A stretch of DNA of 64,000 nucleotides from Streptomyces celluloflavus (lineage in GTDB: Bacteria; Actinomycetota; Actinomycetes; Streptomycetales; Streptomycetaceae). Below are positions 1,501 to 4,634 of the stretch, one piece after another. Made by a program: the position numbers and the translations under genes. Positions within the stretch are counted from its first letter, which is position 1. Each line of letters begins with the position of its first letter. The DNA is taken from assembly GCA_000720995.1 (NCBI GenBank), contig JOEL01000011.1, forward strand, positions 62,001 through 126,000, given 5' to 3'. The notes below the pieces were generated by a model that ran no database searches, was not told the DNA's origin, and saw nothing but the letters and a program-made list of their open reading frames with translations.

Positions 1501-2826
1501 GTGACCGAGTCCGCGTCCGTGACACAGCCCGTGGCAGAGTCGGCGACCACGCCCCGCTCGGAGTACAGCGCGGATGTGATCGTCGTCGGCGCCGGGCCCG
1601 CAGGTTCGGCGACCGCCTACCACCTCGCCAAGTCCGGTCTGGACGTCCTCCTCCTGGAGAAGACCGCCTTCCCCCGCGAGAAGGTCTGCGGTGACGGTCT
1701 GACCCCGCGCGCGACCAAGCAGCTCGTCGCCATGGGCATCGACATCTCCGAGGAAGCGGGCTGGCTGCGCAACAAGGGCCTGCGCATCATCGGCGGCGGC
1801 TCCCGCCTCCAGCTCGACTGGCCGGACCTGGCGAGCTACCCGGACTACGGCCTCGTCCGCCGGCGCGACGACTTCGACGAGCAGCTGGCGAGGCAGGCGC
1901 AGAAGGCCGGCGCGCGGCTCTACGAGCGCTGCAACGTCGGCGCCCCGGTCATCCACGAGCTGACCGGCCACATCACCGGCGTGCAGGCGAAGCTCGGCGA
2001 GGAGAAGACCCCGGTCACCTTCCACGCCCCGATCGTCGTCGCCGCCGACGGCAACTCCACCCGGCTCTCCCTCGCCATGGGCCTGCACCGCCGCGAGGAC
2101 CGCCCGATGGGCGTCGCCGTACGCACCTACTTCACCTCGCCCCGGCACGACGACGACTACCTCGAATCCTGGCTGGAGCTGTGGGACCGCCGCGGCGCCC
2201 AGGACCGTCTCCTCCCCGGTTACGGCTGGATCTTCGGTATGGGCGACGGCACCAGCAACGTCGGCCTCGGCGTCCTGAACACCTCCAGTTCCTTCAAGGA
2301 GCTGGACTGGCGCGAGATCCTCAAGGCGTGGTGCGCCTCGATGCCCGCCGACTGGGGCTACACCCCCGAGAACATGACCGGCCCGATCCGCGGCGCCGCC
2401 CTCCCCATGGCCTTCAACCGCCAGCCGCACTACACCAAGGGCCTCCTCCTGGTCGGCGACGCCGGTGGCCTGGTGAACCCCTTCAACGGCGAGGGCATCG
2501 CGTACGCCATGGAGTCCGGCAGCATCGCCGCCGAGGTCATCGTCCAGGCCCAGGCCCGCCAGACCTACGCCCAGCGCGAGCTGGCCCTGCACCGCTACCC
2601 GAAGATCCTCAAGGACACCTACGGCGGCTACTACAACCTCGGCCGCGCCTTCGTGAAGCTCATCGGCAACCCCAAGGTCATGCAGATCGCCACCCAGCGC
2701 GGCCTGACCCACCCCCTCCTGATGCGCTTCACCCTCAAGATGCTCGCCAACCTCACCGACCCCACGGGCGGCGACGCGATGGACCGCATCATCAACGGGC
2801 TGAGCAAGGTCGCGCCGAAGGCGTGA
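1501..2826 (+). CDS. Geranylgeranyl reductase family FAD enzyme (menaquinone reductase, MenJ-like)
   Basis: 441-residue flavoprotein expected to saturate isoprene units of the menaquinone side chain. The N-terminal FAD-binding Rossmann motif is VIVVGAGPAGSATAYHLAKS (about residues 21-40), followed by the family segment FPREKVCGDGLTPRA. The second FAD-contact motif is LLVGDAGGLVNPFNGEGI (about residues 316-333). The GTG start at 1501 has GGGAG 9 bases upstream. Mycobacterial MenJ reduces one isoprene of menaquinone-9 (family knowledge), and Streptomyces menaquinones are partly hydrogenated, so this role is likely. Acting on other polyprenyl lipids is the alternative. Confidence 0.88.
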   Translation: MTESASVTQPVAESATTPRSEYSADVIVVGAGPAGSATAYHLAKSGLDVLLLEKTAFPREKVCGDGLTPRATKQLVAMGIDISEEAGWLRNKGLRIIGGGSRLQLDWPDLASYPDYGLVRRRDDFDEQLARQAQKAGARLYERCNVGAPVIHELTGHITGVQAKLGEEKTPVTFHAPIVVAADGNSTRLSLAMGLHRREDRPMGVAVRTYFTSPRHDDDYLESWLELWDRRGAQDRLLPGYGWIFGMGDGTSNVGLGVLNTSSSFKELDWREILKAWCASMPADWGYTPENMTGPIRGAALPMAFNRQPHYTKGLLLVGDAGGLVNPFNGEGIAYAMESGSIAAEVIVQAQARQTYAQRELALHRYPKILKDTYGGYYNLGRAFVKLIGNPKVMQIATQRGLTHPLLMRFTLKMLANLTDPTGGDAMDRIINGLSKVAPKA

Positions 2827-2878
2827 TCCTTCAACACTCATCCGCTGCACCCCGCTGACCTCGGCCGATGTCTGCCTA

Positions 2879-2946
2879 CGGTGCAAGGAACGTTGCACCG
2901 TGGACACCACTCCGCCCGCCGGCGCGCACTGTGCCGACGGGCGGAG
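2879..2946 (+). terminator. Two consecutive hairpins after the reductase gene
   Basis: The first hairpin pairs CGGTGCAA (2879-2886) with TTGCACCG (2893-2900), perfect with a 6-base loop. The second pairs CTCCGCCCGCCGGC (2910-2923) with GCCGACGGGCGGAG (2933-2946), one G-U-type mismatch and a 9-base loop. There is no strong T run, as is usual in Streptomyces. Confidence 0.6.
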
Positions 2947-2963
2947 TCACGAGGGCGCTGGAC

Positions 2964-3113
2964 GGGGAGCGCCCAGCTCGGCCCGTGAGGCACACCGAGC
3001 CAGACCCTCTGACCGTCCGGCGTGATCGTCATTCCGAAGCCGGTCAGATGTGGTGAGCCGTGGCTCTGCCACTGCATGAGCGAGTCCTCGATGGCGGTCC
3101 ACAGGTTGAGCGG
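2964..3113 (-). pseudogene. Possible C-terminal remnant of a protein-L-isoaspartate methyltransferase-like protein
   Basis: The minus strand encodes LNLWTAIEDSLMQW and then GFGMTITPDGQRVWLG and PHGPSWALP. From memory this resembles the C-terminal end of the actinobacterial methyltransferases of the protein-L-isoaspartate type found near RiPP and regulator genes. No start, SAM domain or proper stop goes with it, so if real it is a remnant. It ends about 20 bp from the left inverted repeat of the adjacent element, and no N-terminal part was found on the element's other side. A chance reading frame is the alternative. Confidence 0.3.
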
Positions 3114-3248
3114 TCCACGCCTTCGGGAGCAATGCTCAAGATCTGTGGATCGGGCTCGGGTTGGACGCGAAGGGCGTACCTTCCCGAGTGATCGATTGAA
3201 GGTCACCGAGTAGGCCGACGTTGGCGCGTCGGTCGGGAAGGCACGCCC

Positions 3249-3473
3249 GTGCTGAGCGTGGTCAATGCCGATGGCAGCACCTCGAACGCCTCCTTGATGG
3301 ACGAGTTCGTCCGCGAGGGCGCCCGGCGGATGCTCGCCGCCGCTCTGGAGGTCGAAGTCGATGCCTGCATAGCCGAGTTGGCTGATCAGCGTGACCTCGT
3401 CGCCCTCGTGAGGGCCGGAGCCCGCTTCGAACGCGGCCACCTCGTCGAACGCCCCGAGGCGGTCGCGGCGTGA
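3249..3473 (+). pseudogene. IS256-family transposase, in-frame internal deletion
   Basis: Only 74 residues remain of a protein that is usually about 400. The N-terminal part (EFVREGARRMLAAALEVEVD to about residue 49) matches the conserved start of mutator/IS256 transposases. The last 25 residues (LVALVRAGARFERGHLVERP) match the conserved C-terminus. The DDE catalytic region between them is missing, with the junction near 3395 (ADQRD|LVALV). The frame is intact from GTG to TGA, so the deletion is exactly in phase. The stop overlaps the downstream GNAT start. Family assignment is from memory of the conserved termini. Confidence 0.75.
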
Positions 3474-3988
3474 ACACCATCGAAGCCGAAGCCATCAGCA
3501 CCGGGCGACTGGACCTGCTGCCTCTTCTCGTCGAGCACGCCGAGGAGATGGCCACGATGCTGTCCGACCCGGCTCTTCACACCTTCATCGGCGGCACCCC
3601 GGACACCCCGCAAGCCCTGCGCTCGCGCTACCAGCGCATCACCGCAGGCTCTCCCGATCCCGCCGTCTCCTGGCTGAACTGGGTGATCCAGCTCCGCGAC
3701 GAGGACTGCCTGACGGGCACCGTCCAGGCGACGATCAGTCCCTCCGGCCACGGCCCCGTCGCCGAGATCGCTTGGGTGGTAGGGACGCCGTGGCAGGGAA
3801 GAGGCATCGCCACCGAAGCCGCCCAGGCACTCGCAACCTGGCTCGGCCGGCAGCCGGTGCATACCGTCATCGCCCACATCCACCCCGGACATCACGCATC
3901 CGCTGCCGTCGCCACCGCAGCCGGGCTCACACCCACCGAGGACCGGTACGACGGCGAGATTCGATGGCGCCGAAGTATCAGGCGATAG
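3470..3988 (+). CDS. GNAT family N-acetyltransferase (IS passenger gene)
   Basis: 172-residue acetyltransferase with a clear acetyl-CoA motif A, WQGRGIATEAAQALATW (about residues 107-123), and the motif B region IHPGHHASAAVATAAGLTPT. The substrate is unknown. The GTG start at 3470 overlaps the TGA of the deleted transposase by 4 bases (GTGA), so translation is probably coupled. The gene lies wholly inside the terminal inverted repeats, about 6 bp from the right repeat, so it travels with the element. It was either acquired as cargo or trapped when the transposase was deleted. Confidence 0.82.
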   Translation: MNTIEAEAISTGRLDLLPLLVEHAEEMATMLSDPALHTFIGGTPDTPQALRSRYQRITAGSPDPAVSWLNWVIQLRDEDCLTGTVQATISPSGHGPVAEIAWVVGTPWQGRGIATEAAQALATWLGRQPVHTVIAHIHPGHHASAAVATAAGLTPTEDRYDGEIRWRRSIRR

Positions 3989-4249
3989 CTCCACCGATCC
4001 ACAGGTCTTGACTATTACTCGATCTTTTTTCGGCACACAGGCTTGGAAGAGATGAGGGCACGGTGCGACGGAGTCAGGTGCGTCCTCCTCAGCTCGGCGA
4101 CCAGGCCGGGCCGAGGTGGTGCCCCGCTCCGGGGAGCGGCGACGAACCGCCTCCCGGAGCGGGAGTTCTGGTGCGACCCTGACCCGGATGGTCGCCATGG
4201 GTGTGGTGCGATGTGACGGCCGCCGCCCAAGCCGGCCGAGGCGGGTAGT

Positions 4250-4399
4250 TCATTCCGACCCGCCTCCCAGACTCTCCACGTGCAGGTTGATCGTTCTGTT
4301 CAACGTTTCGGCCTGTGCCAGGAGGTCTTCGATGGTGGGGCGCGGTGTCGGCGGCTCCTGCTCGTCGGGGGTGCCGGCGGGCGGCGTGTCACTGCTCAC
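4250..4399 (-). CDS. Small protein of unknown function, third gene of a coupled mini-operon
   Basis: 49 residues, beginning MSSDTPPAGTP from a GTG at 4399 and containing TIEDLLAQAETLNRTINLHV, a predicted amphipathic helix. The start lies inside the upstream gene's last codons and that gene's TGA overlaps it, which suggests translational coupling. Codon use is GC3-biased. I recognise no domain; small partners of this kind often sit opposite XRE regulators in Streptomyces. A longer upstream start would run over the neighbouring gene. Confidence 0.55.
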   Translation of the reverse strand: MSSDTPPAGTPDEQEPPTPRPTIEDLLAQAETLNRTINLHVESLGGGSE

Positions 4400-4634
4400 C
4401 GGCGCGCCCCTCCCACTGCCACTCCCGCTCCCGCTCGGCCCGCCTCCGCACCACCCGGATCTCGGCAGGGGCGTCCGCCGGCCATTCCCCCGTGAAGCTG
4501 TAGCGGTTGCGGAGCCAGGGGACGCCTGCACGGACGTCCGTCACGATGGCGGTACGCCCGGGGGCGTACTCGACCACGTCACCGACTCCGGGCGGCTCCG
4601 TGCCACCCTCCGGCGGATCAGCCGGGGTGGTCAT
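4389..4634 (-). CDS. Conserved small hypothetical protein, second gene of mini-operon
   Basis: 81 residues: MTTPADPPEGGTEPPGVGD, then VVEYAPGRTAIVTDVRAG and a charged tail (RAEREREWQWEGRAGEQ). The middle looks like a small beta-barrel of the kind seen in short Streptomyces proteins encoded next to helix-turn-helix regulators (from memory; no function known). The ATG at 4634 overlaps the TGA of the upstream small gene as ATGA, and its own end overlaps the next gene's start. Confidence 0.62.
   Translation of the reverse strand: MTTPADPPEGGTEPPGVGDVVEYAPGRTAIVTDVRAGVPWLRNRYSFTGEWPADAPAEIRVVRRRAEREREWQWEGRAGEQ

Follow-up and report, generated by a model that had tools for sequence, protein, structure and literature searches.

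A GNAT gene behind a trimmed transposase in Streptomyces celluloflavus: a probable stranded derivative of a cargo-bearing IS256-type element

The locus described here lies in a stretch of 64,000 nucleotides of the Streptomyces celluloflavus genome, analysed at its full length and called the window, and is probably a stranded deletion derivative of a cargo-bearing IS256-type element, that is, of a transporter IS. The element spans positions 3127-4020 (894 bp, both inverted repeats included) and holds a 74-aa remnant of the transposase, read from a GTG start on the + strand (3249-3473), whose stop shares the four nucleotides GTGA with the start of a GNAT gene (Table 1). The arrangement had been predicted from the sequence of the window: a full GNAT gene starting on an overlapping stop codon inside the repeats is indeed present, the frames 3249-3473 and 3470-3988 overlapping by GTGA. 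The in-phase loss of the catalytic core, leaving a frame of 74 residues, is likewise borne out by full-length relatives, to which the remnant is continuous as far as about codon 49 (3395), the match then continuing in phase from about codon 393. Alignment of the junction near 3395 with full-length copies, the check proposed with the prediction, put the break at 3394-3395 on an AC microhomology.

Table 1. Features of the element and of its flanks in the window
Feature	Position	Strand	Basis
ATP-grasp-system methyltransferase gene (TIGR04188-type), 3' end, cut by the element	2958..3120	-	comparison with relatives
Left terminal inverted repeat	3127..3153	+	conserved left end GAGCAATGCTCA... also in relatives
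Putative leader RNA	3172..3248	+	arms 3172-3187 / 3233-3248 enclose hairpin 3215-3232
Transposase, N-terminal 49 codons	3249..3395	+	3127-3395 94% identical to L069
Deletion or fusion junction, 2-bp microhomology AC	3394..3395	.	alignment to full-length relatives
Transposase, C-terminal 25 codons and stop, same frame	3396..3473	+	nearest L031, 0.949 identity
GNAT passenger gene, 172 aa, GTG start	3470..3988	+	4-nt overlap with remnant stop
Right terminal inverted repeat	3994..4020	-	27/27 nt identical to right end of L031
ATP-grasp peptide maturase gene (TIGR04187-type), 47-bp fragment	4029..4075	-	comparison with relatives
Stretch lying about 0.9 kb further on in L282 and L283	4077..4201	-	upstream of the ATP-grasp gene in L283

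The window copy, its relatives and its locus

The inverted repeats, predicted as 17/18 identical, are real, and the 18 nucleotides are the inner part of a pair of 27 nt each (3127-3153 and 3994-4020) with 85% complementarity. A chance origin of the repeats was ruled out because they correspond to ends conserved in 62 other two-ended elements, and many relatives compared by sequence share the end bases of the window element exactly. The repeats of the window belong to the same element family as those of the relatives. The transposase of the window copy does not by itself qualify it for that family, the 74-aa frame alone having matched no family in Pfam; the full-length relative L072 does qualify, its 417-aa protein matching PF00872 (E 1.3e-68, Pfam), and this match upholds the predicted IS256-type identity. 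The window copy is therefore a derivative of the IS256 family and no member in its own right.

The passenger has a GNAT domain (PF13302 positions 1-137 of 138, E 2.6e-22, Pfam) and a dN/dS of 0.24-0.36 against ten relatives, a pairwise measure which is not specific to the branch of the window. A DNA search with the element matched 307 of 392 genomes of the genus, bare GNAT homologues included, and the matches split into the element parts 1-269 and 268-894, which meet at 3394-3395. In L031, L034 and L048 the two parts form the ends of a single 1.9-kb element, with the transposase between them and the GTGA overlap present, the transposase being whole in L034 and L048 and interrupted by an early stop (after codon 40) in L031. 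Full-length elements joining transposase and GNAT, with the same ends and overlap, are L034, L048, L106, L109, L116 and L143, together with L031 and its stop. In the genome collection, a transposase of essentially whole length directly precedes GNAT at seven of 80 named loci (L102, L106, L109, L110, L116, L143, and L124 over residues 1-413), L102 and L124 being the same places as L031 and L048. Carriage of GNAT is judged from these comparisons to predate the transposase deletion, since full-length relatives already have both genes with the same overlap. The idea of a plain IS turned into a carrier by the deletion, which was part of the original prediction, is ruled out by these full-length carriers, which bear GNAT between the same repeats. 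The search for these repeats beside an intact IS256 transposase, also proposed at the outset, found them in full-length relatives, and full-length relatives lacking the repeats, named beforehand as counter-evidence, did not appear. Many GNAT homologues without repeats retain only the last transposase codons (e.g. ...ERPEAVAA) before the start, as if the element had been worn away around its cargo. Elsewhere in the window, a minus-strand frame (884-1525) beside a reductase-like gene (1501-2826) reads by eye like a second GNAT acetyltransferase, and L282 has a similar minus-strand frame at the corresponding place.

The window copy looks stranded, because it is single, lacks a target duplication, resides in a genome without PF00872 and has flanks that are 1.3-2.0 kb apart in relatives. 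No further copy of the element was found in its genome by DNA search, and a 1415-bp cargo-less relative matched that genome only at the window locus and in three short matches; neither was a PF00872 transposase matched there. The flanks, CGCCTTCGG and GATCTTTTT, show no target duplication of 8-9 bp. Sequences up to 3120 and from 4029 are separated by 1325-1326 bp in L282, L283 and L285 and by 1981 bp in L284. For this copy, the view of a mobile insertion cassette in the making is therefore not supported. At this place L283 has genes for an ATP-grasp peptide maturase (TIGR04187) and a methyltransferase (TIGR04188), both above cut-off, and in the window this pair, a ribosomal-peptide modification locus, has been destroyed by the element together with a separate loss of some 0.9 kb at 4075/4077. 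L282 matches window positions 2300-3120 unbroken (84%), and the search of one strand gave no match to the element between its two flanks (its genome, G269, is not among the 307 matched); a GNAT gene sitting here in relatives without the repeats, which would have spoken against the element as carrier, was accordingly not encountered.

An element family with exchangeable cargo

A search of 382 genomes of the genus found the left-end pattern at 115 places in 82 of them, and the reversed control pattern at none. Near-identical left ends were counted once, and 107 of the 115 places were taken in (27 plus 80, four of the 80 cut by contig ends); the batches yielding the 27 held 33 further loci from other matches. 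After removal of the window's own row and of a mirror image of L048 from the 64 rows returned by an automated caller, 62 two-ended elements of 901-3954 bp remain, some of which may pair ends of different elements. Perfect target duplications of 8-9 bp flank 17 of 61 evaluable relatives and duplications matching at 0.87 or better flank 26, compared with 16 of 12198 mismatched-flank controls reaching 0.87, counts that may be slightly high because the caller favoured right ends with a target duplication. One family element with a perfect duplication, L075:2018-4789, has its transposase gene interrupted by about 1.4 kb, and this insert holds a 368-aa frame that by eye resembles an IS110-type transposase. 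Right ends mostly read TTGAC(T/A/G)ATT.CTC outward, including a -35-like box (4008-4020 in the window); such a box at right ends could build a promoter in circles or in flanking DNA.

Cargo is borne by 51 of the 62 two-ended relatives, six are cargo-less and five have no assigned cargo. The 28 representative cargoes form 24 clusters, 14 of them named by Pfam and ten without a Pfam match above cut-off; NCBIfam likewise gave ten cargoes no name above its curated cut-off. The Pfam kinds comprise GNAT (two), glyoxalase-like, AAA_33, RibD_C, MDMPI_N (two), PALP, methyltransferase, DUF5959, DUF6058, HAD (two) and SDR, and merging of the GNAT, HAD and MDMPI clusters leaves 21 kinds. The expectation that other copies would carry different passengers is borne out by about 20 unrelated cargoes.

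Different cargo is found behind closely similar transposases, the identities over the transposase part being 90-96% for such pairs among 53 elements. Examples are L188/L201 (95.8%), L198 with its 388-aa frame and the cargo-less L232 (94.5%), the cargo-less L199 and L223 with a 117-aa cargo (93.6%), L109 (GNAT) and L192 (DUF5959) (91.6%), and L071/L074 (90.2%). L198 matches L232 over 1-1395 plus the final 33 bp, and its cargo therefore took the place of the short spacer ahead of the right repeat. L188 was rejected as a cargo swap: it matches the HAD_SAK element L195 over 1-1429 plus the final 74 bp, and most of its cargo is displaced by a segment of 1166 bp that is 93% identical to, and inverted relative to, one in L198. 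This 1.2-kb segment, with a 388/365-aa frame, lies mutually inverted in L188:1-2815 and L198:1-2832 (element coordinates) and may be mobile itself; L188 has it inside another cargo, L198 in the spacer that precedes the right repeat.

The cargo slot runs from the stop of the transposase to the right repeat. For 19 of the 51 elements with cargo, a transposase ending in GC(A/G)TGA supplies the earliest start of the cargo frame in the slot, with a 4-nt overlap; ATG or GTG followed by A yields TGA anyway, and what is informative is that the transposase itself stops on this TGA. Nine kinds are coupled in this manner, namely GNAT, glyoxalase-like, methyltransferase, HAD_SAK, HAD and unknowns of 102, 103, 117 and 155/159 aa, and the HAD, 102-aa and 103-aa cargoes have a further start codon a few codons inward. 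What looks like the same overlap is present in L041, L065 and L082 (MDMPI), outside the 19 scored automatically. In more than half of the elements with cargo there is no coupling; uncoupled same-strand cargoes follow the transposase after gaps of 7-111 bp, and six kinds (AAA_33, SDR, DUF6058 and three unknowns) have cargo on the opposite strand. A universal start-forming transposase end was ruled out, since four of the six cargo-less members end in GCCTGA, which forms no start codon, the other two ending in GCGTGA. Ten plasmid records were annotated next to the matches, an eleventh lacking annotation there, and read by their annotated gene ends they show the 4-nt overlap in NZ_CP108655.1, NZ_CP108263.1 and NZ_CP115453.1, a 1-nt overlap in NZ_CP080648.1, gaps of 42, 42, 40 and 134 bp in four others, a gene on the opposite strand in one and no gene in one.

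A putative leader RNA and the transposase reading frame

The putative leader was analysed in an alignment of 33 left ends, that of the window and 32 relatives hand-picked from 101. Pairing of 3172-3187 with 3233-3248 is common to all 33 and was found unprompted by RNAalifold. Paired cells amount to 97.8%, compared with 93.3% in shuffles and 37-48% in slid versions, and cells with a double change number 36 against 9.4 in shuffles, none of 500 shuffles being as high. Pairs with a double change are five against 2.8 (19 of 500 shuffles as high), and further pair types in the 33 left ends were not above shuffles. The corresponding stretch in the window folds at z -3.6, and Rfam gave no match for the leader in 2800-4500. 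Covariation could also arise in an inverted repeat that is bound as DNA; an RNA is favoured because the ribosome site lies under the stem, the 3' arm covering a Shine-Dalgarno-like GGGAAGG (3235-3241) just before the GTG.

If the cargo is translated through the transposase frame, as originally predicted, deletions that retain GNAT may be expected to preserve that frame. Usable starts were available at 93 GNAT loci, that of the window among them; upstream of 23 of these lies the transposase N-terminus (match at E <= 1e-3), the transposase being of full length in nine and deleted in 14. From the 14, L035 and L036 (both in frame) were dropped for want of a true N-terminus; left aside in addition to the 14 were the weak rows L125, L118 and L155 (all in frame) and nine chance-like rows (two in frame, seven out). 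Of the 12 deletions counted, ten are in frame versus about four expected at one in three (P 5.4e-4), or nine of 11 with the window left out (P 1.4e-3), and in nine of the 12 the frame reads through to the GNAT start; those out of frame are L108 and L045. All 12 differ in span. Across the GNAT tree, partial forms turn up in scattered positions, with 13 changes for 14 rows (L035 and L036 included) against a shuffled mean of 13.3, and well-supported branches alone force four changes; L049 and L145 are sisters on this tree, so one pair of deletions may not be independent. In a small control of deletion derivatives without coupled GNAT, two of six are in frame and four out, the GNAT rows L032 and L046 lying outside these six.

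For other cargoes, a deleted transposase of 178 aa overlaps a HAD gene by 4 nt, in frame, in the Kitasatospora cathayae plasmid NZ_CP115453.1, and 30 loci read for three further cargoes held one clear deletion, L308 (HAD_SAK cargo), which is out of frame. An unbroken frame is not strictly needed, since L031 and L309 keep an intact coupled cargo behind a full-length transposase with a stop or frameshift. The frame test lends moderate support, at the level of sequence, to translational coupling, and the in-frame excess in conjunction with a leader covering the ribosome site favours translation of the cargo through the transposase frame, so that this part of the original prediction is strengthened as a working interpretation.

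Explanations weighed and comparison with known systems

The explanation we hold probable starts from intact members in which a left-end leader RNA can cover the ribosome site of the transposase, followed by transposase, cargo and right repeat. For GNAT and at least eight other cargo kinds the transposase end GC(A/G)TGA also provides the cargo start codon, and ribosomes finishing the transposase frame would re-initiate on the cargo. The 74-aa remnant of the window may accordingly act as a leader ORF for a GNAT gene that is presumably expressed. Two histories fit the copy: a pair of insertions, about 1.3 kb from each other, may have been joined by a deletion, or a single insertion may have been followed by internal and flanking deletions. 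The former, in which one deletion fused an element in the methyltransferase gene (the left part) to a GNAT element in the ATP-grasp gene (the right part), is a sub-model of the stranded-derivative reading and a serious possibility that we stop short of calling probable. It agrees with the missing target duplication, with the distances between the flanks in L282, L283, L285 and L284, and with a left part (3127-3395) that is 94% identical to L069 and only 78% to L031, the right part being nearest to L031 (90%). This left/right contrast is no proof of fusion, because full-length GNAT elements, which have at least two left-end types, show the same mosaic; a chimera as the only reading was rejected on that ground, and a mosaic parent with internal and flank deletions fits too.

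That the 894-bp unit is itself a non-autonomous mobile cassette, mobilised in trans by an intact relative, seems very improbable to us. Both repeats are intact and family-like, the left-end pattern is spread over 82 of 382 genomes, and the 1017-bp derivative L041 has near-matching flanks (8/9), yet the isolation of this copy in a genome without PF00872, its lack of a target duplication, the distance between its flanks in relatives and the different span of each of the 12 deletion derivatives all point the other way. A neutral wreck, with decay of both the remnant and GNAT and a frame left open by chance, is unlikely, if less so. A frame readily stays open in high-GC DNA, and a deletion has a one-in-three chance of being in phase; L308 is out of frame, as are two of the 12 GNAT deletions, 48 of 96 GNAT rows are labelled as without transposase trace, and the control without coupled cargo is in frame in two of six, whereas the intact GNAT with its dN/dS and the ten in-frame deletions of 12 argue against decay. 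Extending the stranded-derivative reading, one may speculate on a gene-shuttling system of Streptomyces built on one IS256 lineage, with a plug-in slot in which the transposase's last bases often supply the start codon, a leader RNA metering translation of transposase and coupled cargo, exchange of cargo, and repeated domestication through in-frame trimming of the transposase to a short leader ORF still driving the cargo, as in the window. This wider proposal is on balance doubtful, being weakened by coupling in 19 of 51 elements and by the four of six cargo-less members without the start-forming base.

IS elements are usually counted as transposase-only, and annotation lists such passengers as separate genes. 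If the explanation holds, one IS lineage with about 20 passenger kinds, many of them translation-coupled, would offer a simple way for single genes to move through Streptomyces and its kin, and the recurrent trimming in frame would illustrate how an expressed gene can be what remains of a mobile element. Through the overlap and the leader RNA the coupling idea is open to direct test.

The full-length relatives resemble the IS256 family in their PF00872 transposase, repeats of about 27 bp and, in many cases, target duplications of 8-9 bp, and differ in that 51 of 62 two-ended relatives bear an extra gene after the transposase; the window copy differs in having no transposase. In a limited literature search, the titles and abstract beginnings of the matches listed contained no description of cargo-carrying IS256 elements in Streptomyces; excerpts of two papers mention 109 p-MULT 1 elements with IS organisation of the IS256 family (PMC3942029) and one captured IS256-family element of 1393 bp (PMC3281130). 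A 5'-UTR structure is reported to regulate transposase expression in ISPpu9 (PMC8450116), another IS likewise with a 5' structure before its transposase; here the covarying stem over the ribosome site would govern the coupled cargo too.

Transporter IS (tIS), insertion sequences with passenger genes, have been described for IS1595 and others, according to excerpts of PMC3129680 and PMC7986276. Full-length relatives are of this kind, holding a transposase and a passenger unrelated to transposition within their repeats, and the window copy, without its transposase, is not. The family differs from described tIS by about 20 passengers in one slot, by the start/stop overlap in nine kinds and by different cargo behind transposases 90-96% identical. 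The mobile insertion cassette of the MIC231/IS231 type is an established term (PMC3913671), and the window copy is like it in that its repeats bracket a passenger without a working transposase. It differs by a coding remnant that keeps the start, frame and stop of the transposase before the passenger, and by the absence of signs of transposition, there being neither a target duplication nor further copies nor PF00872 in the genome. The known kinds here are the transporter IS and the cassette-like derivative, and the window copy is a variant of these rather than a demonstrated active cassette.
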